From a virus, in IMG/VR virus record IMGVR_UViG_3300042517_000301, positions 1-45,907 of that record: 45,907 bases of DNA, one strand, 5' to 3'. Position 1 is the first letter of the stretch. Every line of letters starts with the position of its first letter. The notes beneath the pieces are model-generated. The model did no database searches, was not told the DNA's origin, and was given only the letters and a program-made list of their open reading frames with translations. The position numbers and the translations under genes are program-made. This document shows positions 1-13,333 of the stretch, one piece after another.

Positions 1-134
1 GTAGGACAAGCAGCAGTCAGAGCCTCGTACTCTTCCTTAGTGATCTCCTCATAGGGTGCTTGGCGATAAGAATGATCAGACTTGGGCAGGAATGAGATAC
101 CAGAGACACTATCAAAGTTCTCGTATACCCAAGC
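1..134. repeat. Terminal direct repeat, left copy (contig overlap)
   Basis: These bases recur at 45774-45907. Positions 9-134 are identical to 45782-45907, position 8 (a) differs from 45781 (t), and positions 1-7 match again. The repeat lies inside the ribonucleotide reductase gene and joins its two halves in frame. It is therefore best read as the overlap of a circular or circularly permuted genome rather than as an element. The mismatch changes one codon between Cys (this copy) and Ser (the other copy). Confidence 0.93.
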
Positions 135-1805
135 GCCTACGCTCATCCACTCGTTCTCTTCGACACTGACAGTGATACTAGGCTTGTGCTCGCACCAAGC
201 ATCCTGATACGCCTTCCACAACTCTAGATGATCAATGGCCGTTAGAGCCTTCTTACGAGTCGTAGGAGCCTTCTGTGGGAAAGAGAATACCATAATCTCA
301 GAATTGGTTACATCCGCCTCACAGGGCACTCCAGAGGCTTCTAAGAAGCGTGTGAGAGGATCCTTGACATCTCCACGGACACGCCTAATGTAATAAGGAG
401 CGTGACGAGGATGAATACCACTAGCGGAATCAACCAATTGTGATACAGTACCACTAGGCTTAACGCAAGTAATCGCTGTTGACTGTGGAATCTTAAGTGC
501 CTTAGCGAAGTCCTTATTTGTTTTAATAGCAACTTCTCGCATCTCCTTGAGGTTGGGGACGATCTGCATGGTACCATTACCTGTCATCCACTTGGAGTCG
601 AAGATACCTGTGAGCGACACGCCGAGCAGACGCTCTTCTTCTGTGTTCTGCTTCCACACTTTACGCAAATACTTAAAATCTGTGAGAGTAGCCTGCATCG
701 TACCAAGAATTGTAGCGAGCCGAACCTTACGCTTAAGGTCATCAAGATTATCTGATGCACGAACCACAACCTCAGTAAGATTACAAAACTGGTGCGGACG
801 TAGAATAATCTCAGAGCATGGATTAGTGCCAAACGCATACTCTGTGTCGCGCCTCCCATTCTTAGCGGCCTGCTTGATTGCAGCCTCACGATTAAAGATA
901 CCACGCTCTCCACTCTTCGACTGGTAGAGGCTTAGCCATTCTTCCATGAACGCATCCATACCCGGCTTCTCAGAGTAGGCCACGCTGTTGTTAGCAAGAG
1001 AGCGCTGAACATTGTCCTCCCACCACTGACCCGACTTTGCATTACGCATCCGTCCGTCAGACAAATTACTAAGCGAAATGAGGGCTGAGCGCCGTACCCC
1101 ACCAACCACGACCACTTCAGCAATCTTACATACAAGATCATGACACTCCAAACTAGTCAACTTGCGTCCAGCAGCATTCTCAAACAAGCGAGTGGTAAAA
1201 AGAAACAAGTCTTCCAACGGGGCGGGTCCACTAGCACGACCACCAAACGTCTTAAGACGAGCACCAGACGGACGTACCTGAGAGTAATCAATGCTAGGCT
1301 TCTGACCAGCATACAACATAGCAATCAACTCTCGTAGTGCTCGTGCCCAACCAGCCTTAGAATCAGCAACAATAATGATAGTTGTACTATCCTCAAAGTG
1401 CTCATTTACTACGGGCAACTGATTAACCTCGTCGCGCTCAACACTAAACCCTACTCCTACGCCGTTCATGAGGATATAAAGGATCTCATCGAAGCATCGT
1501 GGATGATTGACTGGAGTGTAAGAACAATTATACCCAGCCACATTCTCACGAGTCAGGGCTGGGCCAGCAGTCATTAGTGCTCGCATACTGGGCATCACTT
1601 CTAGGCCAATGATAGCGTCAAGCAACTCTGCTTTCAACTCTGCTGTCATCTTATAATTATTATTAACACGGAGATGCTGATCCATGAACTCTACATAACG
1701 ACTGACCGTTTCGGGCCAGTACTCTCTACGATTCTCAGCGTCTAGCCAGCGAGCATAACGACTCGTTGCAATGAACGTCTGATAATCAGTTGGCAAACTC
1801 ATCAT
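1..1805 (-). CDS. nrdJ: Class II (adenosylcobalamin-dependent) ribonucleotide triphosphate reductase, main part
   Basis: This encodes residues 1-601 of a roughly 639-residue reductase that makes dNTPs from NTPs; the rest is at 45659-45773 across the circle joint. The sequence resembles the monomeric Lactobacillus-type RTPR. It has a disulfide-forming Cys in NCSYTP (residue 94) and the active-site block GTNPCSEIIL with Asn328, thiyl-radical Cys330 and Glu332, then Cys341 in FCNL. A CxxxxC redox tail lies in the other half. It is shorter than the roughly 740-residue Lactobacillus enzyme. The start at ATG 1805 follows AGAAAGG at good spacing (a second ATG follows at 1802). It is the downstream end of the replication operon, after a tRNA. 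No separate small subunit or glycyl-radical activase is present, which fits a B12 enzyme needing host cobalamin. Confidence 0.93.
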   Translation of the reverse strand, partial: MMSLPTDYQTFIATSRYARWLDAENRREYWPETVSRYVEFMDQHLRVNNNYKMTAELKAELLDAIIGLEVMPSMRALMTAGPALTRENVAGYNCSYTPVNHPRCFDEILYILMNGVGVGFSVERDEVNQLPVVNEHFEDSTTIIIVADSKAGWARALRELIAMLYAGQKPSIDYSQVRPSGARLKTFGGRASGPAPLEDLFLFTTRLFENAAGRKLTSLECHDLVCKIAEVVVVGGVRRSALISLSNLSDGRMRNAKSGQWWEDNVQRSLANNSVAYSEKPGMDAFMEEWLSLYQSKSGERGIFNREAAIKQAAKNGRRDTEYAFGTNPCSEIILRPHQFCNLTEVVVRASDNLDDLKRKVRLATILGTMQATLTDFKYLRKVWKQNTEEERLLGVSLTGIFDSKWMTGNGTMQIVPNLKEMREVAIKTNKDFAKALKIPQSTAITCVKPSGTVSQLVDSASGIHPRHAPYYIRRVRGDVKDPLTRFLEASGVPCEADVTNSEIMVFSFPQKAPTTRKKALTAIDHLELWKAYQDAWCEHKPSITVSVEENEWMSVGAWVYENFDSVSGISFLPKSDHSYRQAPYEEITKEEYEALTAACP

Positions 1806-1843
1806 ATTTAACCTTTCTATAAATTCTTCTATACTATTACTAG

Positions 1844-1925
1844 TAGGGCTGGAGAGAATCGAACTCTCACACCCAAGGGTAACGGATTTTAAGTCCGGCG
1901 CGTCTACCAATTCCGCCACAGCCCC
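1844..1925 (-). tRNA. tRNA-Leu (anticodon UAA)
   Basis: An 82-base cloverleaf can be drawn. The acceptor stem GGGGCTG pairs with CAGCCCT, the anticodon loop is CTTAAAA with UAA at 34-36, there is a long variable arm as expected for Leu, and a T arm with GTTCGAT. CCA is not encoded. It lies 4 bases after the metallophosphoesterase gene and just before the reductase, so it must be processed out of the operon transcript. It would read UUA and UUG codons, which this phage uses heavily. Confidence 0.93.
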
Positions 1926-1929
1926 CCGA

Positions 1930-2706
1930 TTAGACAGCCTTGCTGCCAATCTTCATGTTACGCGACCCGTAGGAAACCATCTCAGGCTTACCACGTTGAA
2001 TAAACCAGTAACCATTACACCAATTAGGGTATGTTGTAGTGCCCTGCAAGTACTCTGTCTGAGCAATGTTAAAGAAGCCGCCCAACTCGCCTACAACGTA
2101 CTCGCCACTAGCGTCCCAGCCCATAGCACAATGATGCGTGTGTGCCGTTAGAACGTGACACTTCTTAACGACTGCAATGGCTAGCGGATTATTAAGAGGA
2201 TTCTTAGAGTACGATGTAGGATGCGCAATAAAATACTTTTGACCATTACTGTTCAAGTATACGTGGTCAAGGTTAGTGATCTTAAGACGCGACTCGTACA
2301 TGGGAATATCATCAAAGACTTCGCGCATCGCTGTGACAAAATCCTTACGGAACTCTACGCTCTTAACGTACCGATAATCATGATTGCCCTTAACGAGAAC
2401 GATCTGCTTAAAATTCTTAGCAAGGGTACTCATGATGCTACGAGCCTCTTCGATTTCTTTCTCAATGCCAGCACTCTTCTGTTTAGGATAGTATTGACTA
2501 AGCGAGTCACCATTAAGAAAGTCTCCTGCGATGAGGAGGTTAGACAAGCCACGCGAAGCAGCGTCGTCTAGGAACTTATTAACTAGTTTAGCGTCGTACA
2601 GGGGCACATGCCAATCAGCAGTAACAGCCCAGTCTCCTCTAAGCATAAGCGGCTTATCTAAGCCATATTCGAACCTACTATAATCATTGGTATCTACGCG
2701 ACTCAT
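1930..2706 (-). CDS. Calcineurin-like metallophosphoesterase
   Basis: A 258-residue protein with the metallophosphoesterase ladder of metal ligands: TADWHVP (D-x-H) near residue 30, GDFLNGD, GNHDYR and the C-terminal AHTHH. Such phage enzymes hydrolyse phosphodiesters or phosphomonoesters with two metal ions; the substrate here cannot be told. The ATG overlaps the stop of the upstream sigma-like ORF by 4 bases (ATGA), indicating translational coupling, and GGGGA lies upstream. It sits in the replication operon after SSB and the sigma-like pieces, so a nucleic-acid or nucleotide substrate is a reasonable inference. Confidence 0.85.
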   Translation of the reverse strand: MSRVDTNDYSRFEYGLDKPLMLRGDWAVTADWHVPLYDAKLVNKFLDDAASRGLSNLLIAGDFLNGDSLSQYYPKQKSAGIEKEIEEARSIMSTLAKNFKQIVLVKGNHDYRYVKSVEFRKDFVTAMREVFDDIPMYESRLKITNLDHVYLNSNGQKYFIAHPTSYSKNPLNNPLAIAVVKKCHVLTAHTHHCAMGWDASGEYVVGELGGFFNIAQTEYLQGTTTYPNWCNGYWFIQRGKPEMVSYGSRNMKIGSKAV

Positions 2707-2993
2707 AAAACATCCCCATTCATTATCATTGTAAGGACATACAAACTATCATTAAGTCTACGAATAGTTTGACGCTTACTTACTTCTTGTAACTTTGCTT
2801 GTTCTTGAATAGGATTACCACTAATGAATACGCCAACTAGGGCTGTATAAAGATTAGGATAATTATGCTTTAACTTCTTTAACCCATTATCAAGATCAAT
2901 TTTATACGTAATAACATCAGCATGACTGCTGCCTAATAGTGCTGTATAGTTGCGTAGCATAGTTTCCACTTGCTGCGTACTATAGCGATCCAT
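2703..2993 (-). CDS. Sigma-factor-like protein, region 4 (HTH) half
   Basis: About 96 residues. The C-terminal part reads like a sigma-70 region 4 helix-turn-helix: a Tyr-rich repeat ending at FISGNP, then IQEQAKLQEVSKRQTIRRL as the HTH and a closing helix. The chosen start (ATG 2993) has GAGG nine bases upstream; ATG 3002 in the same frame is an alternative. The ORF begins inside the last codons of the region-2-like ORF in another frame, so the two look like one split sigma factor. It could instead be an independent HTH regulator. Confidence 0.6.
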   Translation of the reverse strand: MDRYSTQQVETMLRNYTALLGSSHADVITYKIDLDNGLKKLKHNYPNLYTALVGVFISGNPIQEQAKLQEVSKRQTIRRLNDSLYVLTMIMNGDVL

Positions 2994-3240
2994 CCACAAC
3001 ATCCTCGTACGACACGCTCTGGTGGTGCCTCAAGCGTTTGATATAACGAACCCAATCCTTCATCCTGTTATACACGGCTTGTGTTACAAAACGAGGATCA
3101 GCATCAGGAGGACACTTCCATACTGCGATCATGCCCTCCTGATACAAATCATCATACTCAGCCGCGTTCCTAAACTTCCAAGCAGCCGTAGAAATTACTT
3201 TCTCGTACTCCCTGACCCTGATCTGGTCAGGACTTTCCAT
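2980..3240 (-). CDS. Sigma-factor-like protein, region 2 half
   Basis: An 86-residue protein whose centre matches sigma-70 region 2: an N-terminal helix, then EYDDLYQEGMIAVWKC, which corresponds to the region 2.2 core-binding signature, and NRMKDWVRYIKR as the region 2.3/2.4 helix. It is far shorter than a full sigma factor and lacks region 4, which is found in the next overlapping ORF. The ATG overlaps the SSB stop codon (TAATG). Family membership is inferred from motif shape. It may direct host RNA polymerase to the late genes, which lack visible consensus promoters. Confidence 0.62.
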   Translation of the reverse strand: MESPDQIRVREYEKVISTAAWKFRNAAEYDDLYQEGMIAVWKCPPDADPRFVTQAVYNRMKDWVRYIKRLRHHQSVSYEDVVDGSL

Positions 3241-3593
3241 TAAAACCAGAGGTCGTCAGACCCAGCAGGTGCCGCTCCCGTGTCAGCAGTCGCATTAGGA
3301 GGCGATGCGCTAGTTGTGTTAGAGAAGTTGAGGAAGGTAATTGCAGAAAGATTATAATACGTCTGCTGCTCACCATTCTTATTCTGACCCGGAGACTGAC
3401 TAAACTTGCCGTCAGCAACAATAAAATCACCCTTCTTAACGGCTACGTGGGCATTCTCAGGCCACACAGTGATGCTAATCATCTTATGATTGGCGAGGCT
3501 ACGAATAGCCACATCACGAACGTCCTTACCACCAGCCTGCCGCTGACGCGGATCAAACTGTACGATGCCAGCAACGGTAATATACTCATCCAT
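3240..3593 (-). CDS. ssb: Single-stranded DNA-binding protein
   Basis: A 117-residue OB-fold-type protein. The N-terminal strand MDEYITVAGIVQFD, the central ITVWPENAHVAVKKGDFIVADG and a NLSAITFLNF strand match SSB architecture. A disordered Ser/Ala/Pro stretch follows, then an acidic aromatic tip ending DDLWF, analogous to the DDxPF protein-interaction tip of bacterial SSB. The start ATG has AAGGAAA upstream. It is encoded among replication and recombination genes and would coat single strands for the polymerase, the primase-helicase and the Rad52-like annealing protein. Confidence 0.88.
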   Translation of the reverse strand: MDEYITVAGIVQFDPRQRQAGGKDVRDVAIRSLANHKMISITVWPENAHVAVKKGDFIVADGKFSQSPGQNKNGEQQTYYNLSAITFLNFSNTTSASPPNATADTGAAPAGSDDLWF

Positions 3594-3912
3594 TATTAAT
3601 TTCCTTTGTATACGAATTCCAGAATTTTAAGAAAGTCTTGTATGGTACAACTACAAAACGTCTACCAGAGTGACTTTCCCTAAGGAAGAGGCTCCATTCA
3701 CTACCCCGAGCATTATGATCGGCTTGTTCAAGGTCAGCATTCTTTAGGGAAAGTCGCTTCTGATATTTACACTCGGGAGCGAATCGCTCCGGCAAATCAA
3801 TTACGTCAGGAACGTCGAAGCCTCTAGGTCCGGTGCGTGTACCCCCTAGATCCCTAGCGACTTCTCGTTCCCATTCCTTCCACTGCTTACTACGTTTAGG
3901 AGGCAGACTCAT
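3586..3912 (-). CDS. PD-(D/E)XK nuclease, Holliday-junction-resolvase-like
   Basis: A 108-residue protein with a small restriction-endonuclease-fold core: an N-terminal helix with a conserved Glu (WKEWEREVARDLGG), then PDVIDLPERFAPECKYQK carrying the catalytic D...ExK. The C-terminal RFVVVPYKTFLKFW is a typical last strand and helix. Such proteins in phages act as Holliday-junction resolvases or structure-specific nucleases. Three ATG codons occur in a row; the third (3912) is chosen because AGGAGG sits six bases before it. It overlaps both neighbours slightly. Confidence 0.72.
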   Translation of the reverse strand: MSLPPKRSKQWKEWEREVARDLGGTRTGPRGFDVPDVIDLPERFAPECKYQKRLSLKNADLEQADHNARGSEWSLFLRESHSGRRFVVVPYKTFLKFWNSYTKEINNG

Positions 3913-4222
3913 CATCATCCTCCTGCTCGTCGCCCGGATCCTGATCGGTAAGGAACTCTACCTCATCAAGCGGCTCGTCCCAAGACTTATACGTATCGGG
4001 CAGTAGTTCGCGCAACTCTGTAGCAGCATCATTAGCCGCAAACACGACAAGCGCCTCACCATTATCAGTCATAATATAATACGGAGCATCATTAACTGAA
4101 CGCATAGTAAGGAACTCTAGTACACCGCTGATACGATCACTGATAGCGTCGGGATCACCCTGACACTCGGAAAGCATACGCTCCATAGCCGTCTTAACTG
4201 GCTCTTCAATAACTTCACTCAT
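3896..4222 (-). CDS. Acidic hypothetical protein
   Basis: A 108-residue acidic protein of unknown function, with a C-terminal tail rich in Asp and Glu (GDEQEDDDESAS). The middle (PYYIMTDNGEALVVFAAND) looks like short beta strands. The start ATG follows AAGGAGGTG, a strong ribosome binding site. It lies between the primase-helicase and the resolvase-like nuclease, so a replication-linked role is possible but unsupported by motifs. Confidence 0.7.
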   Translation of the reverse strand: MSEVIEEPVKTAMERMLSECQGDPDAISDRISGVLEFLTMRSVNDAPYYIMTDNGEALVVFAANDAATELRELLPDTYKSWDEPLDEVEFLTDQDPGDEQEDDDESAS

Positions 4223-4234
4223 ATTTCACCTCCT

Positions 4235-5515
4235 TTAGAATACTTCGGTGACGGGAAGCAACTTAATGCCACCATCGGTTTGGTCCTTGATTTCAAGATG
4301 CGTCACACCACCGGCCTGTTTGCGGCGAGACTTAAAGTGGACTAGGCGGAACCGACCCGGCGCTTCTGCGCGAGCCTCCAAACCACAATCCACTGCTGCG
4401 CCAATGTCGCTGGAACCTCTTGTGCGCACGTAACTTGAATTCGCATCACCCTTATTGGTATGATGCAGGACAATTATAGCAGCCCCAGTCTCTTTTGTCA
4501 AGACATTAATCGAATCGTTAAAGAGCGCTGCCATAGCACCCGCATTATTCTCATCCTGCGTATGCAGGCGGGTAAGAGAATCTAGAACGATTAGACTGGG
4601 CTGATAAGCGATTGCATCGTCTAGGAAGCGGTCGAAGCGCCTGTCTAGACGGATGCCTTGTCGGTGTAGGTAGCGGAGATTATCAAAACTCTTGGCTCCC
4701 AACTGCTTGAGGCGATGATAAACAACGTCGTGAGGGTTCTCCTCGTCTACGTAGAGTACCTTGCCGTGATGATTAAGATCCCAATTGATCCATTTCTTAT
4801 CACCATTAGCGATAGCAACAGCGAGGCTTAGAGTGATCCAAGACTTGCCAACGTTAGGCTCACCAACGAGTAGGGTAGTATCTCCCTTAGCGATCATACC
4901 ATCTACGAGCCACTGATACTCTGGCGGAGGGAGTGTAAGGTCTAGGCTATTATAATTAAACGCTCCAGCCTTACAGTCTTTGACTAGACTAATGAACGTC
5001 TCCTTAGTGTAGGACTCAAAGAATTCTACAATGTCCTTAACGTCTTCGGGGAGGATCATGCGCTTAGCCTTAGACCCTAGCATTCCACGAATACTACCCC
5101 ACGCCTTCTCAATCTTAGCAGCAGTATTATAATCTGGATCATTATCAAGTACTACATACACAATCTCATACTTGTTTAGGATGTCAGCGTCTTCCTGCTT
5201 CAGGGCGTACGCGCCGGGGATGCCATAAACCGTTTTGATTCCTTCCTGCCAGAGCCGCATTGTGTCCGTCTCTCCTTCGACAAGGAAACAATAATTAGAC
5301 TCTTCTAGGGGGCCGTGGAACATGCCTAGCCGAACTCCCTTATCACTAGTAAACATACGCTTACCGGGACCAATGTACCTCTTCTTTTCTCCGTGAGGGA
5401 AGGGGAAAACTACCCACTCATAATCATCATCGGAGCGTACACCAAACGATTCTAGTGTCTCTACTTCGATGCCCTTACCATTCTTAAACCAGTCTTTCTG
5501 AGTCTCTGTAAGCAT
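4235..5515 (-). CDS. Primase-helicase (Toprim plus RecA-like ATPase)
   Basis: A 426-residue fusion. The N-terminal half is a Toprim domain with catalytic Glu in FLVEGETD (about residue 80) and DxD in VVLDNDPD (about 124-126). The C-terminal half is a RepA/DnaB-like RecA ATPase with Walker A GEPNVGKS (about 218-225), Walker B SLIVLDSL, and a downstream IIVLHHTNK plus RTRGSSDIGAA, typical of the RepA/AAA_25 family. It unwinds DNA and probably primes lagging-strand synthesis. There is no recognisable N-terminal zinc ribbon, unlike T7 gp4, so primer-site recognition may differ. AAGGA precedes the ATG. Confidence 0.87.
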   Translation of the reverse strand: MLTETQKDWFKNGKGIEVETLESFGVRSDDDYEWVVFPFPHGEKKRYIGPGKRMFTSDKGVRLGMFHGPLEESNYCFLVEGETDTMRLWQEGIKTVYGIPGAYALKQEDADILNKYEIVYVVLDNDPDYNTAAKIEKAWGSIRGMLGSKAKRMILPEDVKDIVEFFESYTKETFISLVKDCKAGAFNYNSLDLTLPPPEYQWLVDGMIAKGDTTLLVGEPNVGKSWITLSLAVAIANGDKKWINWDLNHHGKVLYVDEENPHDVVYHRLKQLGAKSFDNLRYLHRQGIRLDRRFDRFLDDAIAYQPSLIVLDSLTRLHTQDENNAGAMAALFNDSINVLTKETGAAIIVLHHTNKGDANSSYVRTRGSSDIGAAVDCGLEARAEAPGRFRLVHFKSRRKQAGGVTHLEIKDQTDGGIKLLPVTEVF

Positions 5516-5523
5516 TAGTATCC

Positions 5524-6261
5524 TTAGTTATTTACGCGGACAAAACCAATGACATCACTAACGTTGCGTGTCATGTGTGCAACCATCCCGCCGTCGGACG
5601 GGTTAGTACCAGAGGTGTTACCCTCAATAGTCGTGAACTTAGTAGCCTTCATTGGTGCCACCTCAACGATACCAATGTGATCAGCGATACCATCATCGTC
5701 CCAATCGAAGAGGACTACATCACCAGACTTAGCCTGATTAGCAGGCACAAGTGCAAGGTAGTTACGATTATACTTAGCGTCCTCTAGGACGTAGGGGCAG
5801 TAAGCGTAACGCTCATGCTGCTTCCAAGCCTTGCTCTTAGCGCCAACGAAACAATACGTTACGAACATGGCGCACCAAGGACCAGTGATACCATACCAGT
5901 TAGAGAACATAACCTTGTTAGACTTGGGCGGCTGCTCACTAACGCCAATGAACTGCTGTGCAATATCAATAGCAGTAGCACCAACGTACTTCTTACTGCG
6001 AGACTTTGCTCGCTGCTTCATCATAAGCGGCTGCTTCTTAATACCCGTCAGGTAAGCATGCAACTGATCATCATAATTAGAATTAATATTCTTCTCCTGA
6101 TAACCCAGATCCCACTTAGCAGCACGAGTAGCACGAGCACTAGCCTCACCATAGATGCTATCAATCTTACCAGTGTAATACCCAGTAGTCTTCAGCAACT
6201 TCTGTGCTGCGGATACCTCTGGACGCTTCATGTTCGGACTAGTCAACTTTAGTGTAATCAT
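5524..6261 (-). CDS. Endolysin with peptidoglycan-binding and CHAP domains
   Basis: A 245-residue lysin. The N-terminal part (about residues 12-75) matches a PG_binding_1 repeat (AAQKLLKTTGYYTGKIDSIYG). The C-terminal part (about 95-245) is a CHAP amidase/peptidase: catalytic Cys in GPWCAMFVTYC, His in ADHIGIVE, then TIEGNTSG. No signal peptide is seen, so release depends on a holin; the holin-like genes are over 38 kb away on the opposite strand. ATG 6261 follows AAAGGAG. Its place inside the replication operon is unusual. Confidence 0.87.
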   Translation of the reverse strand: MITLKLTSPNMKRPEVSAAQKLLKTTGYYTGKIDSIYGEASARATRAAKWDLGYQEKNINSNYDDQLHAYLTGIKKQPLMMKQRAKSRSKKYVGATAIDIAQQFIGVSEQPPKSNKVMFSNWYGITGPWCAMFVTYCFVGAKSKAWKQHERYAYCPYVLEDAKYNRNYLALVPANQAKSGDVVLFDWDDDGIADHIGIVEVAPMKATKFTTIEGNTSGTNPSDGGMVAHMTRNVSDVIGFVRVNN

Positions 6262-6494
6262 ACCATACTCCTTTGTGTTTTAATTTGTTCTTGCTCATAA
6301 ATATAGATGAGCCGATCAACGTACCATTTGGCTTTAAGTAGATCCTCCATGCCATTCTTGTGACGATACCTAGCAATATATTTTAGCACATTACCTTGGT
6401 GATAGTCAAGCCCTAAGCCTTCAATGGCTGTGATGACTTCCATATCGCCTTGTGTGTAGTGCTTCGGACTATTTACTGGATCATCAATCGCCAC
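6258..6494 (-). CDS. DUF3310 family protein
   Basis: A 78-residue protein starting VAIDDPVNSPKHYTQGDMEV and containing GNVLKYIARYRHK, the DUF3310 signature found in many phages (related to T7 gp1.7-type proteins). Its exact activity is not established here. The GTG at 6494 is chosen because AAGGAGGAG lies just upstream and the DUF3310 motif begins directly after it. An in-frame extension to 6566 would overlap the polymerase gene extensively. The last codons overlap the endolysin start. Confidence 0.82.
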   Translation of the reverse strand: MAIDDPVNSPKHYTQGDMEVITAIEGLGLDYHQGNVLKYIARYRHKNGMEDLLKAKWYVDRLIYIYEQEQIKTQRSMV

Positions 6495-7227
6495 TATACT
6501 CCTCCTTATCTGCCCAAGTTGTATAACTAATCTCACAATCAGTTTCGACTCTGACAAACTCTTCAACCACGCTGTTACCCATAAGGCGCGGCACAGCCGT
6601 CACTACATCACTAATCTCATTCTTGTCAGCATCAATGATGATCTCATCATGCACGATATTTACTATATGACTAGCATATTTCGTGCATAGAAAGTTATCT
6701 ACTTTAACCACCGCGTCGCGCATAAGATCAGCAGCACTGCCTTGAATGAGTGCGTTAAGAGCCTTGTGCTCTTCTTCTACGTGCAGCCTACGATTATACA
6801 GATTATTAATATAACCACGATCTTGGATAGCCGTAGCGATCTTAGCGTTGAGTAGTTTAATACCCGGCCTTGTCTCATGATACGCTTTCAGGAGACGCTT
6901 AGCCTCAGGATAATCAACACCTAACTGTCGCATGATAGTCGGGGTGCCACCACCGTAGATGATACTAAAGTTTAGGGTCTTGCCGACTTGTCGCTGCTCG
7001 TCTGTGACGTTCGACGTAGCGTATAAGCCTTGCGCAGTGACGAGATGCGGATCCGATCCATTGTTGATTTCGGATGCCAGTGATTGATCACCAATCCCTC
7101 TCGCCAAGTAGTATGCGAGGAGCCTGACTTCGATTGCTTTGTAGTCGAAGAACAGGAACGCGTCGAACTTGGGAACAAAGGCTTGTTTAACATCTTTCTG
7201 ACTCCTTGGAATATTTTGTACGTTCAC
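6484..7227 (-). CDS. polA: DNA polymerase A, C-terminal (palm/fingers) fragment
   Basis: A 247-residue piece with the family A polymerase core: NVQNIP at its very start, motif A-like FDYKAIEVR, motif B RQVGKTLNFSIIYGG (Arg, Lys and Phe at the expected sites) and motif C VHDEI. It begins with a GTG overlapping the stop of the exonuclease fragment (GTGA). It has no N-terminal exonuclease or thumb. An 8-bp tandem duplication just upstream put it out of frame; with one copy removed, the two pieces form a single polymerase. It could be translated by reinitiation at the overlap, but no strong ribosome binding site is present. Confidence 0.88.
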   Translation of the reverse strand: MNVQNIPRSQKDVKQAFVPKFDAFLFFDYKAIEVRLLAYYLARGIGDQSLASEINNGSDPHLVTAQGLYATSNVTDEQRQVGKTLNFSIIYGGGTPTIMRQLGVDYPEAKRLLKAYHETRPGIKLLNAKIATAIQDRGYINNLYNRRLHVEEEHKALNALIQGSAADLMRDAVVKVDNFLCTKYASHIVNIVHDEIIIDADKNEISDVVTAVPRLMGNSVVEEFVRVETDCEISYTTWADKEEYSGD

Positions 7228-8168
7228 GCTTCCACTGCTCCACTGCTCATACGACCAGTGCGAGTACCATGCTGACGAAAGTTAGGATGAAGGACACCAT
7301 CCCTAGCCTCTTCGTACAAGCCGTCAAAGTAAGTAGACTTGATCTTGTTGGCCTCGCGCAACTCTACGATCATTAGCGCCAGTTCGTCGTCCACCGCTGA
7401 AAGCGTAGCCTTGTCTGTCGCATCGACTCGTACTCCACGCTGTGCAAAGGCTTCGATGATCTGCTTAGGGGACTGTGGGTTGAACTCTTCCCCAGCAATT
7501 GTCCCAATCCGATGCTTAAGTTTGTAAATCCGATCACCATACTCCCGTCGTTGTGTTAGAACATACTCTTTATCAATAGCCATACCCCTTGCCTCTACAC
7601 CTAGCAGACTGATTGTCAGTTGTTTCTCCAACTCGTACAAGTCTTTAATGCTGTCAGGAAGTAGCGGACATAAGGCTTCGTAGAGTTGTAGCGTGAACTC
7701 AGCGTCTTTAATGGCGTATGGAGCCAGTATCTCGTGGGGGATAGGATAATAACCATCTTCCTTCTTTACTTTTAATTCGCGGCGTACTTTACGCAACGCC
7801 TCATCCTCGTCTGTTTCCTCTCCAAGGACTTCTCGTGCTAGAAACTTGAGGCCCGTGGAGCGCTGCTCGTCAATCAGATGCGCAATGGCTTGAGTGTCCT
7901 CAAACTTATCTTTGAACACGCTGAGTGGGATACCTAGGCGACACAACTTCTGGATATCAAACTTGGCATTGTGCATGATGATCTTATCACAATCGATAAG
8001 CATTGTGGATACGGTTTCTACCGCCTCATCCCAATCTTTGCCATGTTCGCAAAGACGCTTATCATAAACATGGCTCCAGTCTCGTGTCGCTACGCTAATC
8101 ATGAAAGCCTCGTCGTGCCAGCCTACGCCAGTTGTTTCAGTATCAATAGCCAGAAGACCCGAATCCAT
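7224..8168 (-). CDS. polA: DNA polymerase A, N-terminal (3'-5' exonuclease/thumb) fragment
   Basis: A 314-residue piece. The 3'-5' exonuclease begins at once (LLAIDTETTG, Exo I), followed by IIMHNAKFDIQKL (Exo II) and YAIKDAEFTLQLY (Exo III-like). A thumb region then runs to RTGRMSSGAVEA, where it stops. A normal polymerase would continue from TGRMSS into the NVQNIP motif, which lies in the -1 frame in the next ORF. ATG 8168 with GAGAGG upstream is preferred over GTG 8186. It overlaps the end of the dUTPase gene. Confidence 0.88.
   Translation of the reverse strand: MDSGLLAIDTETTGVGWHDEAFMISVATRDWSHVYDKRLCEHGKDWDEAVETVSTMLIDCDKIIMHNAKFDIQKLCRLGIPLSVFKDKFEDTQAIAHLIDEQRSTGLKFLAREVLGEETDEDEALRKVRRELKVKKEDGYYPIPHEILAPYAIKDAEFTLQLYEALCPLLPDSIKDLYELEKQLTISLLGVEARGMAIDKEYVLTQRREYGDRIYKLKHRIGTIAGEEFNPQSPKQIIEAFAQRGVRVDATDKATLSAVDDELALMIVELREANKIKSTYFDGLYEEARDGVLHPNFRQHGTRTGRMSSGAVEA
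7231..7248. repeat. 8-bp tandem duplication splitting polA
   Basis: The plus strand reads TCCACTGC twice in tandem (7231-7238, 7239-7246) plus two further matching bases. On the coding strand this duplicates GCAGTGGA. Deleting one copy changes the codons after TGRMSS to GGA AGC GTG AAC GTA CAA, giving SSGSVNVQNIP, the usual family A polymerase junction, and one open frame of 564 residues counted from 8186 (558 from 8168). Confidence 0.95.
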
Positions 8169-8574
8169 TATCGCCTCTCGTTCCACTCCAGATCATATCA
8201 TCACCGCGCAGCAAATTCAACTGCATAAGTGGTTGCATCATAAACTGTGCAATCTTATCGCCACGCTCAACAAGGTACGTTTTCTTACCCATGTTACCAA
8301 GGACAATCTTAATCTCACCACTATACTCGGCATCAATGATACCGGGCGCATTGAGTACAAAGATACCATGCTTAGAGGCTAGACCACTACGACTCATGAT
8401 AAGACCTACATGCCCTGTGGGGACGCGGATAGCCAACTCGGTACGGATAGTAGCAAACCCGTTGGGGTTGATAGTCTCCTCACTACTAGCCCTAAGATCG
8501 TAACAAGCATCAGCAGCGTGAGCCTTACTAGGGCTATGAGCATACTTAGTTAGGTGCTTATAGTGTACTAGCAC
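8143..8574 (-). CDS. dut: dUTPase (deoxyuridine triphosphatase)
   Basis: A 143-residue trimeric-type dUTPase that hydrolyses dUTP to dUMP. The motifs appear in order: AADACYDLRAS (1), SRSGLASKHG (2), APGIIDAEYSGEIKI (3, catalytic Asp), RGDKIAQFMM (4) and the C-terminal RGDNGFGSSG (5). It starts with GTG at 8574, sharing one base with the stop of the upstream gene (TAGTG). Next to polymerase and in the same operon as the reductase, it helps keep uracil out of phage DNA. Confidence 0.95.
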   Translation of the reverse strand: MLVHYKHLTKYAHSPSKAHAADACYDLRASSEETINPNGFATIRTELAIRVPTGHVGLIMSRSGLASKHGIFVLNAPGIIDAEYSGEIKIVLGNMGKKTYLVERGDKIAQFMMQPLMQLNLLRGDDMIWSGTRGDNGFGSSGY

Positions 8575-8954
8575 TAGTCCATCCTATAATCTGGAGGATT
8601 ACAAGTACACTCTTTGCCCCGCTTAAGACTAGCGTAGCGAGCACAATAATCACAAAGACACTCCGGATCATAAGCCTTGCGCCAGTAAAGATCAAACTCT
8701 ACATTATCCTCAAGAATGTCCTCAAACGTCTCAGGAGGATCATCGAACTTAGCCGCATAATCCTGATTAAGAATGCTACTCATAAGGTCAGAGTAAAGCA
8801 TATCAACAGGCTCATCCTCGCCAAGAAGACGCTTGTAAGAACTCTCCATTTTATGGAGACGATCCTCAATGTCATCTAGATAACTACGAACACTATCAAC
8901 ATTATCACGCACAATAGCCATATTAGTAATCAAACGATCCCGATCATTCATCAT
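8574..8954 (-). CDS. Hypothetical protein with Cys-rich tail
   Basis: About 126 residues, unknown function. The N-terminal half (to about residue 45) is a charged helix, likely coiled coil (ITNMAIVRDNVDSVRSYLDD). The C-terminus holds CLCDYC and, further on, CTC, a possible zinc site. ATG 8954 overlaps the Rad52-like gene stop (TGATG), with a G-rich run upstream. The position between the annealing protein and dUTPase suggests DNA metabolism, but no family was recognised. Confidence 0.7.
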   Translation of the reverse strand: MMNDRDRLITNMAIVRDNVDSVRSYLDDIEDRLHKMESSYKRLLGEDEPVDMLYSDLMSSILNQDYAAKFDDPPETFEDILEDNVEFDLYWRKAYDPECLCDYCARYASLKRGKECTCNPPDYRMD

Positions 8955-9535
8955 CACACAAGCCCCCTTGCCGCCATAACAGCACGCATATTCTCAACAG
9001 AAAGATCCTCAATACCAAGACACAACACAATGTTCTCTCGCGACGGCTGCTCATTAGGATCCAGCCCCAACTCGCGTACCGTATACTCCATGACCAACTT
9101 CTTCAACGCGACATCATCATTCATAGCGTCACGCTGGTGCTGAACAAATGTACGCTCATCCTCACTCCACAAGTAGAGAGCAATGCCAAACTGGTGACAA
9201 GCCTTCTTAAGCGCCTCAGCCTGCGCAGTCTTAACAGACGTATCAGGATCAAAGTTAAAACCCGCACCACTACCATCACGACTAGTAACAACATCATCAT
9301 GATTAATGCTCAGAGTACCATTCACAATAGCAATATACTGTGGCTTACCCTTAGCGGTAGGAGGACCATCACGGAACTCCCAAGAGTTAACAGCCCAATC
9401 CCACGTACTACCAAGAACATCGTTGAGACGATTAATATAACCATCAATCGCAACATAATCCTGATTAGACTGATTCTTCTTCACAAGAGAGTGGTGAAAC
9501 CTCTCAGTCAACTCGTCAGAAAACTTACTCGCCAT
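8954..9535 (-). CDS. Rad52/Rad22-like single-strand annealing protein
   Basis: A 193-residue protein resembling phage Rad52-type annealing proteins: YVAIDGYINRLNDVLGSTWDW near the start, a beta region around GKPQYIAIVNGTLS, then KTAQAEALKKACHQFGIALYLW, the conserved helix of the family. It would anneal complementary single strands coated by SSB, pairing with the exonuclease encoded just upstream. The C-terminal region (ENIVLCLGIEDLSVENM) is an accessory tail. ATG follows GGAGAAG. Confidence 0.82.
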   Translation of the reverse strand: MASKFSDELTERFHHSLVKKNQSNQDYVAIDGYINRLNDVLGSTWDWAVNSWEFRDGPPTAKGKPQYIAIVNGTLSINHDDVVTSRDGSGAGFNFDPDTSVKTAQAEALKKACHQFGIALYLWSEDERTFVQHQRDAMNDDVALKKLVMEYTVRELGLDPNEQPSRENIVLCLGIEDLSVENMRAVMAARGLV

Positions 9536-9719
9536 GCTTCTCCTTAATAGTAATCATAATATGATCCAGTGCTTGCTGACCATAAGGCGTGATGAGGTAC
9601 TTACCATAAGTCTTCTCAACCCAACCCATCTGCAAGTACCACGCAAGATCACCACCCGTAACCTCAATGGTAATCTTCTCACCAAAGAATCTAGTTTTAA
9701 CTTTCTGCAAGAACTTCAT
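9525..9719 (-). CDS. Small hypothetical protein
   Basis: A 64-residue basic protein. ATG 9719 (MKFLQKVKTRFFGEK) is preferred because the longer frame would intrude further into the nuclease gene. It overlaps the nuclease end by 23 bases and the Rad52-like start by 11. The sequence EVTGGDLAWYLQMGWVEK followed by YLITPYGQQAL resembles a winged-helix-like fold, but this is only an impression. No family is recognised. Confidence 0.65.
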   Translation of the reverse strand: MKFLQKVKTRFFGEKITIEVTGGDLAWYLQMGWVEKTYGKYLITPYGQQALDHIMITIKEKHGE

Positions 9720-10539
9720 CGGGCAATCCCTTGTCTTCGACAATTTTAGCATACCCATCCTCAACACTCAATGTACCTTTCTTCCACTCTGCAACGACCT
9801 TGTATGTGTCATTGCTACACCCACAAGGATCGTCGGCAAACGATTGCCAAGGACAAAACATGCTAGTATAGTGAGGCTTATACACTAGTTGCCAATACTT
9901 ATACTTCTTTTTCCAAACGTACTCGCCACTAAACGCGCTAGGCAGCGTACCATCATGGATGTACTCGTTAATGTAACGCTCAATACGAGCCATACGAGCC
10001 TCAATCTCATCCTTACTGCGCGGCTCAATCTCATAGAAGATTGGTTCTGACCAATGCCTCTTATAATCAGGACTACTAGGCAGGTAGAGGATACCAACGC
10101 GCATGTTAGGGATTGTGGGTCCAAAATGATAGTATGCGCTGACTTGAAGGACGTGATCAGGTTTAGGACCATCCATGAAGGATAGACTAGTGCCACTGAC
10201 AGTTTTATAATCGACTAGCCACGTTTCACCAGCAGGATTAGTAAGGTAAGCGTCAGCAGTGCCCGTCCAAGGATACATGCGCTCTCCCAAAAAGATTGGT
10301 TGCTCACTTACATAATTCCACTCTGAAGCGTCGTGCATAATGCCGTGAACATGCTCATGCACCGCAGTGCCCTGCAATAGTGGAAACGTATTCATCCAAG
10401 GCTTATCGACCAGTGGTTGCCCATGCACCCAACTGATACAAGTGTGTCTAGGGTTCTGCAAATCTGTAGAGAAATGCAAATACTTGTCTACGCGAGGCGT
10501 ATTAATACTAGTCTTGATTGTATCAATCAGACTCTTCAA
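9697..10539 (-). CDS. PD-(D/E)XK exonuclease (RecB/Cas4-like)
   Basis: A 280-residue nuclease. The core has a His in AVHEHVHGI, then GTADAYLTN and ETWLVDYKT, the D...DxK catalytic set of the RecB/Cas4 nuclease fold, and VLQVSAYYH as the conserved QxxxY helix. C-terminal cysteines (FCPWQSFADDPCGC) could bind metal or an iron-sulfur cluster as in Cas4/AddB proteins. TTG 10539 with GGGAGG upstream gives a start close to the conserved region; an ORF extension to 10608 would overlap the previous gene. It forms a probable exonuclease/annealase pair with the Rad52-like protein. Confidence 0.82.
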   Translation of the reverse strand: MKSLIDTIKTSINTPRVDKYLHFSTDLQNPRHTCISWVHGQPLVDKPWMNTFPLLQGTAVHEHVHGIMHDASEWNYVSEQPIFLGERMYPWTGTADAYLTNPAGETWLVDYKTVSGTSLSFMDGPKPDHVLQVSAYYHFGPTIPNMRVGILYLPSSPDYKRHWSEPIFYEIEPRSKDEIEARMARIERYINEYIHDGTLPSAFSGEYVWKKKYKYWQLVYKPHYTSMFCPWQSFADDPCGCSNDTYKVVAEWKKGTLSVEDGYAKIVEDKGLPDEVLAES

Positions 10540-10705
10540 GAAAATCCTCCCACTCACTAACCAACCGACTACTACCATCCTCAACCTGTACCATAATCTC
10601 GCCACCAACAGTCACAGTAGCATACATAGTGGCAATACGCTGACCATTATAGAATAGTGCCGACTCATTATCATGAGTATCACCCTTGCTAACAAACTTA
10701 AACAC
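10523..10705 (-). CDS. Small acidic hypothetical protein
   Basis: A 60-residue protein beginning at GTG 10705 after AAGGAGAAG, overlapping the end of the tiny basic gene before it. The sequence alternates polar and hydrophobic residues (GQRIATMYATVTVGGEIMVQ), suggesting a small beta protein with an acidic C-terminus. Function unknown. Confidence 0.62.
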   Translation of the reverse strand: MFKFVSKGDTHDNESALFYNGQRIATMYATVTVGGEIMVQVEDGSSRLVSEWEDFLEESD

Positions 10706-10832
10706 GCTGCTTCTCCTTGAGTTTACGCTCAGCACGAAGAGCCTTAGCCTTCATCTTCTTAGCGCCACGATCCTCACGAACCTGCTTATTAGCAACCAAC
10801 TTATTCTTCTTAATACTAGACGAAACAGCCAT
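10698..10832 (-). CDS. Tiny basic hypothetical protein
   Basis: A 44-residue Lys/Arg-rich protein starting MAVSSSIKKNKL and ending KLKEKQRV, probably one long helix. AGGAAGAAGAG precedes its ATG. It overlaps the stop of the upstream gene and the start of the downstream one, the usual spacing here. The charge suggests nucleic-acid binding; no family is recognised. Confidence 0.65.
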   Translation of the reverse strand: MAVSSSIKKNKLVANKQVREDRGAKKMKAKALRAERKLKEKQRV

Positions 10833-11062
10833 TACTCTTCTTCCTTAGGTGTAAAACACAACACAGTAGCATCAAACTTAACCTTATCACTAGCCGTCTT
10901 AGCCCGACGATAAGTATGAACCTTATAACCACGCTCATAAAGCATCTCAGTAGCAAGACCCAAACTAGGACTACGCCCAACCATATCACCATCCACGGTA
11001 ACAGACCAAGCACCCTTCTTATACACAATACTAGCCTCAGCCAGTTTCTTCTCACCTATCAT
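10832..11062 (-). CDS. Small hypothetical protein
   Basis: A 76-residue protein from ATG 11062, with GGGAGG upstream. It contains GAWSVTVDGDMVGRSPSLG and ends in an acidic KEEE. It resembles small beta-alpha phage proteins with no assigned role. A longer frame to 11122 would encode an improbable hydrophobic extension and is not used. Confidence 0.65.
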   Translation of the reverse strand: MIGEKKLAEASIVYKKGAWSVTVDGDMVGRSPSLGLATEMLYERGYKVHTYRRAKTASDKVKFDATVLCFTPKEEE

Positions 11063-11216
11063 AAACACCAGCCTCCCAATCAACAGGAGGATAATCCAAA
11101 TCATCCGAATCAATAGAAACAAAATACTCCATCAGCATCTCATACCTATCCTCATAAGCACTAGCCTCATGCAGAGACTCGTACGTCCAAAAAGGAACAT
11201 CATCACTAGTACTCAC
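11052..11216 (-). CDS. Small acidic hypothetical protein
   Basis: A 54-residue acidic protein reading STSDDVPFWTYESLHEAS after the start and ending DWEAGVYDR. The GTG start overlaps the previous stop (GTGA) and GGAGG lies seven bases upstream. It is too short for standard ORF cut-offs but has good coupling on both sides. Unknown function. Confidence 0.6.
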   Translation of the reverse strand: MSTSDDVPFWTYESLHEASAYEDRYEMLMEYFVSIDSDDLDYPPVDWEAGVYDR

Positions 11217-11392
11217 TCAGTGCCTCCATAACTAGACTCAAAATCATTAAGGGCTGACAAATACATCTCACGTACTGTATTAAGAACATCATAAACTATA
11301 AGAATCTCATCATCCTTATAAGAATACTTATCAGTAATATATTTTTCATAAAGTACATCATAAACCTCTATAAGTACCATATGGTCTAGCAT
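11213..11392 (-). CDS. First gene of the replication operon, small hypothetical protein
   Basis: A 59-residue acidic protein starting MLDHMVLIEVYDVLYEKY. The ATG at 11392 is preceded by AAAGGA at seven bases and lies about 20 bases after the predicted transcription start of a consensus promoter, so it is the first product of this operon. ATG 11380 is an in-frame alternative. Probably helical; no family recognised. Confidence 0.65.
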   Translation of the reverse strand: MLDHMVLIEVYDVLYEKYITDKYSYKDDEILIVYDVLNTVREMYLSALNDFESSYGGTE

Positions 11393-11419
11393 TTGTAGTC
11401 CTTTCTATTCTTTATAAGC

Positions 11420-11448
11420 ATTATATCACACAAAACACTAAAAGTCAA
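11420..11448 (-). promoter_or_regulatory. Consensus sigma-70 promoter for the replication operon
   Basis: The minus strand reads TTGACT (11448-11443), a 17-base spacer, and TATAAT (11425-11420). This is nearly ideal for host housekeeping sigma. It points into the gene at 11392 and so into the whole replication arm. Confidence 0.9.
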
Positions 11449-11505
11449 GGCATCGTTACAATGCTGATACATAAGCAATGCTTATACAAGCCAATTTATC
11501 CCAAA

Positions 11506-11587
11506 TACGAGTGAAGGGAATCGAACCCTCAAGCCTCGCGGCGGCAGATTTTGAGTCTGCTGTGTCTACCAGTTCCACCACACTCGC
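11506..11587 (-). tRNA. tRNA-Leu (anticodon CAA)
   Basis: An 82-base Leu-type tRNA: acceptor GCGAGTG pairs with CACTCGT, anticodon stem GCAGA/TCTGC with loop CTCAAAA (CAA), a long variable arm and a T arm with GGTTCGATTCC. No CCA is encoded. It reads UUG, one of the most frequent Leu codons in the late genes. It is transcribed from its own promoter directly upstream. Confidence 0.94.
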
Positions 11588-11594
11588 AAAAAGT

Positions 11595-11623
11595 ATTATA
11601 CCACAGGCTGATACAACAGTCAA
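11595..11623 (-). promoter_or_regulatory. Consensus sigma-70 promoter for tRNA-Leu(CAA)
   Basis: The minus strand shows TTGACT (11623-11618), a 17-base spacer, then TATAAT (11600-11595). The predicted transcription start falls at or one base before the mature tRNA 5' end, so little or no 5' leader would need removal. Both -35 and -10 hexamers and the spacing are identical to the next promoter 175 bases on. Confidence 0.9.
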
Positions 11624-11839
11624 ATCACAATATTGTAACAACGATTCTAAGCATAAAAATAGCCTCACCCGTGGGGTAACCCTCCCTAAACCCTCAAAAC
11701 CCCTTAGAACGCCCCCTAGACCCCTTAAAACGCATCCTAAACATTAAAAGACCCCCACAATAATACCCAAGGTTCCTACCCTCCCAAAAAATAAAAAACG
11801 CAGCAAAAAAACAAACTACCCCCACACTTGACAAGAAAC
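11624..11839. other. Non-coding interval between terminator and tRNA promoter
   Basis: No credible gene is seen. The plus strand is C/A-rich with several loosely repeated CCCT/CCCC tracts (around 11680-11770) and a short dyad ACCC-GTG-GGGT near 11668. The G-rich strand is the transcribed-sense strand here. Its role is unknown; it may insulate the two transcription units. Confidence 0.55.
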
Positions 11840-11867
11840 AAAAAGCAAGCGCCCGAAGGCGCTCACT
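11840..11867 (-). terminator. Intrinsic terminator ending the early small-gene block
   Basis: On the minus strand a 10-bp stem (AGTGAGCGCC with GGCGCTTGCT, two G-U pairs) closes a TTCG tetraloop and is followed by TTTTT. It lies directly after the 26-residue membrane micro-protein gene and before the tRNA promoter. Confidence 0.88.
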
Positions 11868-11869
11868 TG

Positions 11870-11950
11870 TCACCGAAGAAAGATACGAAACACACGCAAC
11901 ACAAAATACACTACAATCATGATAAAGCCCACGATCATAGTGTCACTCAT
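11870..11950 (-). CDS. 26-residue membrane micro-protein
   Basis: Encodes MSDTMIVGFIMIVVYFVLRV plus six residues: a single hydrophobic segment with an Arg-containing end. The ATG overlaps the stop of the preceding gene (ATGA), and the intrinsic terminator follows at once, so it is the last gene of its unit. Similar in size and form to the gene at 15765. It may be a membrane-active early peptide; function unknown. Confidence 0.55.
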   Translation of the reverse strand: MSDTMIVGFIMIVVYFVLRVFRIFLR

Positions 11951-12495
11951 GCAGCACTCCGACGATACGCGCACCACACACTAGCCTGAGCATCACGAGG
12001 AGAAATACCAAACACATCCGCGATCTGCCAACACGCCGTCGTCACTTCCTCACGAATACGAGGCGACACATCCGAACCATAACCAGCAGCCTGAGACATA
12101 ATACTATCCACAGTCACAGCATCCTCATCACCACAAAGAGCATCATAAAACACAGACACCTTAGGACCAGTAATAATATTACTATAATACCGACTAGTCA
12201 TAATACGAATAGCCTTCGTCTCATTCGCACGAAGCACACCATACGTACCAAAACCCTTACCAGCATTATGATCACCAATAATACCAACAGTAGCCGCAAC
12301 ATTAGCAGACCACCGAGCACGAGGACTAGTCACAGCCATAACAGCAGCAACACGCTTCGGACGAACATCATGCTGCTTAGCAATACGCTTACACAGATCC
12401 CAAGCAAGCGGATACCACGACGTACCATCATTAACAGCACGATCAACACCATAAGCATTCATATGCTTATAAAACTTATTAGCAACAGTAATCAT
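11947..12495 (-). CDS. DUF7178-like phage protein
   Basis: A 182-residue protein. VAAVMAVTSPRARWSANVAA and TGPKVSVFYDALCGDEDAVTVDSIM match, from memory, the DUF7178 group common in actinophages. Its helical layout (a GxxxG turn before a helix ending VTVDS) recalls helix-hairpin-helix base-excision glycosylases, but this is an inference without catalytic proof. ATG 12495 follows GAGG at seven bases; the upstream ORF extension to 12510 has no ribosome binding site. Confidence 0.7.
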   Translation of the reverse strand: MITVANKFYKHMNAYGVDRAVNDGTSWYPLAWDLCKRIAKQHDVRPKRVAAVMAVTSPRARWSANVAATVGIIGDHNAGKGFGTYGVLRANETKAIRIMTSRYYSNIITGPKVSVFYDALCGDEDAVTVDSIMSQAAGYGSDVSPRIREEVTTACWQIADVFGISPRDAQASVWCAYRRSAA

Positions 12496-12497
12496 AA

Positions 12498-12668
12498 TTA
12501 AACCTCGCAAATTTCGACATTACCATGAAGATCAGAACCTGAAATTTCAGGCTCACTATCCCAATACGCTGGATCATAAAAACGCGACCGCGCATCATCT
12601 TCATTCTCTGCTTCTACAAGCACAGAATACCAAACAACTTCATCCCAAAACACTTCGTATCGTGGCAT
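12498..12668 (-). CDS. Small DpnD/PcfM-like hypothetical protein
   Basis: A 56-residue protein starting MPRYEVFWDEVVWYSVLVEA, then ENEDDARSRFYDPAYW, and ending EICEV. The pattern of a beta hairpin, an (A/E)xxxDDA helix and a terminal strand resembles DpnD/PcfM-like proteins, and it is repeated in the C-terminus of the next gene. AAGGAGGCGTA precedes the ATG. The family assignment is tentative. Confidence 0.62.
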   Translation of the reverse strand: MPRYEVFWDEVVWYSVLVEAENEDDARSRFYDPAYWDSEPEISGSDLHGNVEICEV

Positions 12669-12677
12669 TACGCCTCC

Positions 12678-13112
12678 TTAAACCTCGTAGACTTCGCATT
12701 CGGCATCATAAGAATTCCAATCCAAATAATAATGATCCAGACCATTAGATTCAACATCATCCATAGCCTGCTCCTCAGCATCATCCTTACTACGCGCATT
12801 AACACGCACAGTAAACGACACAGGAAGCGTAACCGACACATCATACTCACGCCTAAGCAAACCCTCAGGCATAGCATCATGATGCTCAAGAATATCAATA
12901 ACAACATCACGCTCAATACTCATATTATTAAGCAAACGATCAATAGCATTATCAACATCACCACTAGAAACACAAGTATCTTCAATAACATTAAACAAGA
13001 CACTAGCAAGAACCTCAGTAACACGATCATTCCAGCGCTTATCAGACTCAACCTTAGCCTCAAGGCGAGCAACCTGCTCCTTAAGCATAGGATACGTTAC
13101 AATATCAGACAC
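12678..13112 (-). CDS. Hypothetical protein with DpnD/PcfM-like C-terminus
   Basis: A 144-residue protein. The N-terminal 85 residues are helical (LKEQVARLEAKVESDKRWND looks coiled-coil). The C-terminus (YDVSVTLPVSFTVRVNARS, KDDAEEQAMDDV, CEVYEV) parallels the small gene at 12498. GTG 13112 overlaps the previous stop (TAGTG) with GAGGAG eight bases upstream. Function unknown. Confidence 0.68.
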   Translation of the reverse strand: MSDIVTYPMLKEQVARLEAKVESDKRWNDRVTEVLASVLFNVIEDTCVSSGDVDNAIDRLLNNMSIERDVVIDILEHHDAMPEGLLRREYDVSVTLPVSFTVRVNARSKDDAEEQAMDDVESNGLDHYYLDWNSYDAECEVYEV

Positions 13113-13333
13113 TACACACACTCCTCAAAAAGAACATCATCAGTATAAAGCCACCAAGCATCACGAAACGCAAGTTCTGTCACAAAATCAACATTATCAG
13201 AACAACACGAACAACGCCAAGCCTCATCCATATCCTCCCAATAAGCATCATCATACAAAGGATAATCACGCTCATCAGCAAAACGCTCATAATCCTCAGC
13301 ACTAAGTACATTATAACTAGTCCTATCAAACAT
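13112..13333 (-). CDS. Small acidic hypothetical protein
   Basis: A 73-residue acidic, aromatic-rich protein starting MFDRTSYNVLSAEDYERFAD, with a CSCC cluster near residue 41 and a Cys near the end. The ATG overlaps the upstream stop (TAATG) with GGAG just before it. No known family; the Cys cluster might bind metal. Confidence 0.65.
   Translation of the reverse strand: MFDRTSYNVLSAEDYERFADERDYPLYDDAYWEDMDEAWRCSCCSDNVDFVTELAFRDAWWLYTDDVLFEECV

Follow-up and report, generated by a model that had tools for sequence, protein, structure and literature searches.

Sigma factors normally consist of one chain in which the readers of the -10 and -35 elements are tied together, and in phage SPO1 gp33 acts with gp34. 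To our knowledge few split sigma factors have been described, namely SigO-RsoA, encoded in the chromosome of one bacterium, and gp55/gp33 of phage T4. For the former pair, that of B. subtilis (YvrI-YvrHa), sigma2 and sigma4 are described as residing on separate small proteins which must cooperate for initiation (PMC8103513, PMC10028694), and a table of PMC10141391 gives the two domains in the opposite order. For the late genes of T4, a "split sigma" has been described that is composed of gp55, with homology to sigma2, and gp33, a mimic of sigma4 at the beta flap (PMC2988020, PMC7892883); gp33 is reported not to recognize DNA, and T4 late promoters to be devoid of a -35 element (PMC2988020). 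The phiEco32-like phage 7-11 encodes the sigma factor SaPh711_gp47, which includes a region-4 homologue, and its late promoters are given as GTAAtg-(16)-aCTA (PMC8948821), while in SPO1 the phage sigma factors gp28 and gp34 are described as indispensable for the middle and late genes (PMC9429907).

Here we describe a pair of overlapping genes, ORF1 and ORF2, in a single virus record of 45,907 bases, the whole of which was analyzed and is hereafter referred to as the window. The pair may be likened, by description, to SigO-RsoA, since sigma2 and sigma4 would be carried by two small proteins; unlike the chromosomal and acid-stress-related SigO-RsoA, it is encoded by a phage, its genes overlap and the region-2 gene comes first. 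As in T4, the sigma2 and sigma4 roles would be divided between two phage proteins, but in contrast to gp33, ORF2 by its predicted fold keeps the region-4 helix-turn-helix, and in contrast to the T4 late promoters, the candidate late promoter displays a conserved -35 box, CCCCCGTT, located 16-17 nt from a -10-like box. A further difference from the T4 system is that no sliding clamp was recognized among the window proteins scanned. Phage 7-11 shares with the split-sigma family a bipartite late promoter with a spacing of about 16 nt (16-17 nt in the family), and differs in its one-chain sigma, its several late promoters and the boxes themselves; SPO1 differs in being a large Bacillus phage. By analogy, the split phage sigma thus appears to combine features of SigO-RsoA, T4 gp55/gp33 and phage 7-11. 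No report of a sigma factor of a small phage divided in this way was found in the literature searched, most subscription papers lying outside its coverage.

The window has two arms: replication-type genes occupy the minus strand from about 1.9 to 17.1 kb, and the plus strand from about 17.6 to 45 kb holds the terminase, portal, major head protein, internal virion protein and tail fibre genes. The phages carrying the split sigma are a podovirus-like family. Among annotated relatives, the portal of the window is closest to those of Arthrobacter phages Jasmine/Adat, Microbacterium phage Shocker and Cellulosimicrobium phage DS1 (26-29% identity), all of which display a similar two-arm layout, and due to this similarity the host is likely an actinobacterium. 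On the minus strand, the sigma gene pair is found towards the end of the replication arm and is flanked by an SSB-like gene (3240-3593(-); weak Pfam SSB match, 0.012), which adjoins ORF1, and a metallophosphoesterase gene (1930-2706(-); Pfam Metallophos, 2e-06), which adjoins ORF2, an order kept in 7/7 other genomes searched. No phage RNA polymerase was found among the 30 window proteins scanned. Other features of the genome include an antirestriction protein (13874-14776(-)) with a strong match to phrog_7245 (6.6e-72) and conserved across the phage family, two tRNA-Leu genes (1843-1925(-) and 11505-11588(-), anticodons taa and caa), and a strong terminator-like hairpin (25340-25371(+); 14 pairs, TTCG loop, T-run) directly after the major head protein gene. 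In a related genome (G002:C1) the major head protein matches in two pieces (33176-34036 and 34100-34531) that are offset by about 60 nt; both pieces share one open frame of 454 aa, which probably reflects an insertion in the protein.

Host-type promoters and a conserved element before the late genes

A first-pass annotation of this DNA had claimed two strong promoters in the early arm and late genes without visible consensus promoters. A scan of positions 1-20,000, which span the early arm, found 61 sigma-70-like sites against 36.2 +/- 7.4 in shuffled sequences, and the first claim thereby roughly holds; the strong minus-strand sites of this arm, however, are three rather than two (12/12 at 4501, 11/12 at 11448 and 11/12 at 11623). 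The late arm shows no enrichment (31 sites versus 24.9 +/- 5.2, and 33 versus 28.5 +/- 5.4) and its listed sites reach 10/12 at most, in agreement with the second claim. The perfect site, at 4501-4473(-), carries a TG, lies inside the primase/helicase gene and faces the sigma genes, and may serve the ssb-sigma end of the operon as an internal promoter. The two 11/12 sites, at 11623 and 11448, flank the tRNA-Leu gene at 11505-11588(-).

The first gene of the late arm is located at 17623-18246(+), in an open frame of 17503-18246 whose start is likely near 17623, and the terminase large subunit gene (18369-19877(+)) lies downstream of it. When the 650-nt regions preceding the first late gene were compared across seven near-complete genomes, CCCCCGTT was the sole 8-mer common to 7/7 regions, whose identity to the window is otherwise only 45-57%; any common 8-mer was found in 0/300 dinucleotide-shuffled sets. 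In all seven genomes CCCCCGTT is present exactly once, on the late strand and 145-298 nt before the first late gene. Since 0.68 copies per genome are expected by chance on both strands, it is the shared place of the element, and not its count, that is informative. In the window, CCCCCGTT (17403-17410(+), 220 nt upstream of the first late gene) is proposed as the -35 element of a late promoter and TATAAATT (17428-17435(+)), 17 nt past it, as the -10 element, and a further conserved element, TTTTTGGCAC (17448-17457(+)), is found just 3' of the proposed promoter. Likewise, at the sites examined a TATRWAWT-like octamer follows CCCCCGTT after 16-17 nt and TTTTDRHAC after 37-38 nt. A weight-matrix scan returned one strong site per genome (20.7-27.1 bits, the next separate site reaching 13.7 at most); because the matrix was built from 11 of the sites that it re-found, the high scores arise by construction and the informative result is the occurrence once per genome. 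A second regulatory site is possible at 17377-17391(+), where the window carries TTGACAATCGAAAAT, and a similar sequence, GACAATTGAAAAT, precedes CCCCCGTT in G001 and G002.

The sequence CCCCCGT is present in 12/12 sigma-bearing records that hold the region, as CCCCCGTT in 11 (window, G001, G002, G004, G005, G008, G009, G010, G017, G029 and G030) and as CCCCCGTC in one, G027, whose sigma pair (locus L023) is also one of the more divergent (54% identity for ORF1 and 41% for ORF2). Eighteen of the 30 sigma-bearing records have no terminase match and are not scorable for the element; the early antirestriction gene was found in four of these 18 and in none other of the 19 rechecked, the contig end being too near for the region. 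Seven fragments of 4.6-16 kb hold the element and a related terminase with no sigma match, which neither helps nor refutes the association. In the four annotated relatives that are devoid of the sigma pair, CCCCCGTT is absent (Jasmine) or occurs once, on the minus strand and away from the start of the late arm. The loose pattern CCCCCGTT...TTTTDRHAC was found in 120 stretches of the published collection, most of them without a TATA-like box. Taken with its TATRWAWT box, CCCCCGTT looks like a promoter read by the split sigma, a candidate link based on their joint presence in a single phage family, with members that are not independent of one another. The presence of a conserved, non-host-like candidate promoter before the first late gene supports the proposed role of the pair in late transcription.

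The same element could instead be a packaging site (cos/pac) or a site of another kind, with the split sigma reading other promoters, and its single copy per genome close to the terminase gene, together with contigs that begin or end near it (G007 and G031), would fit such a function. However, these contig ends differ, lying about 80 nt downstream of the place of the element in G007, whose contig begins there, and 62 nt upstream in G031, and six other near-complete contigs end elsewhere. Moreover, the layout resembles that of a promoter: the two boxes are spaced by 16-17 nt, lie on the late strand and precede the first late gene by 145-298 nt. We thus consider a packaging or other site unlikely, and favor a late promoter.

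Domain identity of ORF1 and ORF2

Relatives of ORF1 were found at 30 loci in viral contigs, and the alignments of ORF1 (A1) and ORF2 (A2) comprise 20 and 21, respectively, of the 31 sequences formed by the window and these loci. Near-identical rows were dropped (L002, L006, L007, L010, L012, L018, L021, L022, L027 and L030) and L019, in which both ORFs are fused, was included in A2 only. For L020, whose ORF1 start is ambiguous, position 4977 was used in A1 and 5001 in the dN/dS test. A further alignment, A3, which combined L019 with all halves, placed the ORF2 N-termini wrongly and was left out.

ORF1 (2980-3240(-), 86 aa) carries the motif DLYQEGMIAVW and matches Pfam Sigma70_r2 (PF04542) at 2.9e-07, with 30.6 bits against a cut-off of 24; the same family is matched by 20/20 aligned members (E up to 1). 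The AlphaFold model of ORF1 (pLDDT 86.3) has a sigma70 region 2 as its best solved match (Z 9.8, rmsd 2.3 over 68 residues), and the N-terminal domain of SigE scores Z 9.3. Profile A1 matched the sequences of solved structures weakly, the best match (0.0068) being a sigma factor, and a tblastn search of 50,697 phage records yielded three weak matches for ORF1 (best 0.03) and no matches for ORF2. Based on its sequence family and predicted fold, ORF1 is assigned as a free-standing sigma-70 region 2 and, by domain identity, as the putative core-binding and -10-recognition half.

ORF2 spans 2703-2993(-) (96 aa) from the homology-supported ATG, and 2703-3002(-) (99 aa) from the first ATG. By itself the window sequence scores under every curated sigma cut-off, its match to Sigma70_ECF being sub-threshold (0.0076, 16.6 bits against a cut-off of 21.1). 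Among the 21 aligned members, Sigma70_ECF is matched by 11 (best 7e-06), SigF by 14 (best 3.2e-05), sigma70-ECF by six and a phage family of sigma-K factors by 15 (best 6.6e-06). The AlphaFold model of ORF2 is confident (pLDDT 91.8, pTM 0.81), and among solved structures it is closest to SigL region 4 (Z 9.9, rmsd 1.9 over 69 residues). For either ORF the Foldseek E-values are weak (best 0.06 for ORF1 and 0.15 for ORF2), as expected for small helical domains, and nearly all top matches are sigma factors. Profile A2 found nothing convincing among the sequences of solved structures (best 0.058), and the viral structure library held no match with E < 0.001. The assignment of ORF2 as the region-4 half, with the helix-turn-helix preceded by a conserved N-terminal helical segment, is thus supported by the predicted fold and by the matches of its relatives to sigma families.

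The first-pass annotation had read these ORFs, at 86 and about 96 residues, as region-2-like and region-4-like. Both lengths, the motif and the positions, which are on the minus strand, stand, as does region 2, by profile search and by fold; region 4 holds for the fold of ORF2, the profile match of the window copy being sub-threshold. A placement of the pair in unrelated families, which that annotation had named as contrary evidence, did not materialize by HMM or structure, the sequence of ORF1 and the fold of ORF2 both pointing to sigma factors.

A different function for ORF2 deserves consideration, namely that of a Q-like or other sigma4-like late activator or antiterminator working with the host sigma, ORF1 being then a separate minimal sigma. 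The Q-like antiterminator family phrog_79 is matched by 14/21 members (best 3.4e-06), the window ORF2 not being among them, and Pfam Phage_antitermQ by 5/21 (best 0.0062); in addition, the Q protein of phage 21 matches the ORF2 model with Z 8.9 over 87 residues, nearly the whole of ORF2. Nevertheless, the best 50 solved matches to this model hold more region-4 than Q structures, sigma region 4 being the majority, and the ORF1/ORF2 pair is always adjacent. The proposed late promoter is, moreover, devoid of a host-type -35. In L019 the two halves are joined in one open frame of 181 aa (5001-5546(+)), whose chain matches the sigma70-ECF model TIGR02937 end to end, from residue 6 to 170 in a single stretch (2e-09; 37.3 bits, under the cut-off of 42.9). 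A Q-like role for ORF2 therefore seems to us quite improbable, and the region-4 half is the preferred assignment. The N-terminus of ORF2 also bears what we take to be a resemblance to ArpU/RinA late activators, and no such NCBIfam family was found among the 21 members; ClpX-like or other unrelated families were supported by no search.

Conservation of the split

The pair is kept in 30/30 loci, as two ORFs in 29, and only L019 carries both sigma domains on one chain. In the window and in 27/30 loci ORF2 lies in the +1 frame relative to ORF1 and the genes overlap, by 14 nt in the window (2980-2993(-)) and by variable lengths elsewhere, the ORF1 stop falling 8-53 nt past the ORF2 start. The first-pass description of two overlapping ORFs in different frames is thus confirmed, for the minus strand. 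In L001 and L002 the frame is shared: ORF1 ends in a TAA, and 12 nt further on ORF2 starts with an ATG of its own. One ORF2 was found per record in 21/21 records searched, and a scan of viral contigs with A2 yielded 28 loci, every one overlapping the ORF1 set; the corresponding scan with A1 gave no loci beyond the 30, and a direct scan with a single ORF2 sequence gave no matches. Sigma70_r2, A1 and A2 had no matches in the four relatives searched (Jasmine, Shocker, DS1 and ctEqG8), and a scan of genome contigs returned two distant matches which translate as one-chain sigma-like proteins.

In the window a GAGGA at 3002-3006(-), inside the 3' end of ORF1, is the probable ribosome-binding site of ORF2. 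Across the family, a survey found ribosome-binding-like tetramers before 16/20 ORF2 starts versus 13% of random places, and these tetramers often fall within the codons of a conserved Tyr-Glu-Glu stretch close to where ORF1 ends. The joint region of L019 is devoid of the Tyr-Glu-Glu codons which act as the ribosome-binding-like sequence in the split forms. In ORF1 and ORF2 alike, pN is lower than pS in 210/210 pairs. The median dN/dS is 0.21 for ORF1 and 0.30 for ORF2, over the 73 and 40 of 210 pairs that are usable, dS being saturated in many pairs, and a few ORF2 pairs reach up to 0.64. These sequence comparisons indicate that purifying selection acts on both ORFs.

The first-pass annotation had left a choice between a single product formed by frameshifting and two subunits. 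Programmed +1 frameshifting that fuses ORF1 and ORF2 would suit the +1 position of ORF2 in the window and in 27/30 loci, but the stop codon and separate ATG between the ORFs of L001 and L002 argue against it. Furthermore, no slip site common to the overlapping loci was seen over the varying distance between the ORF1 stop and the ORF2 start, and ribosome-binding-like sequences precede most ORF2 starts. We regard frameshifting as very improbable; due to the arrangement in L001 and L002, the varying overlap, the ribosome-binding-like sequences and the selection on both ORFs, separately translated and coupled subunits are favored over frameshifting or error. A sequencing or assembly error that has broken up an ordinary sigma gene of the window, which a fused homologue such as L019 (the one fused form found on comparing relatives, as that annotation had proposed) might have revealed, can practically be dismissed, since the same split, with separate starts, is found in 29/30 relatives, which come from many metagenomes. 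Judged from these comparisons, the split is real and old.

The DNA polymerase I of these phages is also found as two ORFs, located in the window at 7224-8186(-) and 6484-7227(-). The first ends in ..RTGRMSSGAVEA before the stop and the second begins MNVQNIPRS.., and the cut is at the same site in 8/8 genomes compared. The pieces touch in the window and in G003; the distance between them is 170-1943 nt in six others, among them G005, G008 and G009, where an open frame that starts with MISVITP.. and is presumably glycosyltransferase-like lies in the gap. A polymerase split with unrelated genes between its halves merits a separate study.

A putative two-subunit switch to late transcription

We consider it probable that ORF1 and ORF2 form a two-subunit phage sigma factor that switches the host RNA polymerase to one late promoter. 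This reading builds on the domain identities, the constant pairing and the conserved DNA element, and a one-chain relative exists. We infer from them that the subunits contact each other, bind the polymerase, recognize the promoter and act late. The early operon would be expressed first, from host-type promoters, and both subunits would be made in step, through translational linkage of their overlapping genes towards the end of this replication operon. ORF1 would then dock on the beta-prime clamp of the host RNA polymerase, where it would read and melt the TATRWAWT box, and ORF2 would dock on the beta flap and read CCCCCGTT. Together they would bring the polymerase to the one late promoter, at 17403-17435(+), from which the terminase, capsid and tail genes would be transcribed. 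Residues 1-21 of ORF2 are conserved and lie outside most region-4 matches, and this segment is a candidate surface for joining the two halves. We hold somewhat less firmly, as a moderately probable part of the model, that each half reads its own DNA box, region 2 TATRWAWT and region 4 CCCCCGTT, at one dedicated late promoter per genome.

The putative split sigma of these phages is compact and family-wide, has a natural fused counterpart and is accompanied by a single candidate late promoter. The availability of split and fused forms allows direct tests of whether the linker between the sigma domains is needed and of what the second subunit contributes. If the proposed function is true, the one-chain form of L019 would make a matched pair with the split form for understanding why and how a sigma factor can be cut in two.
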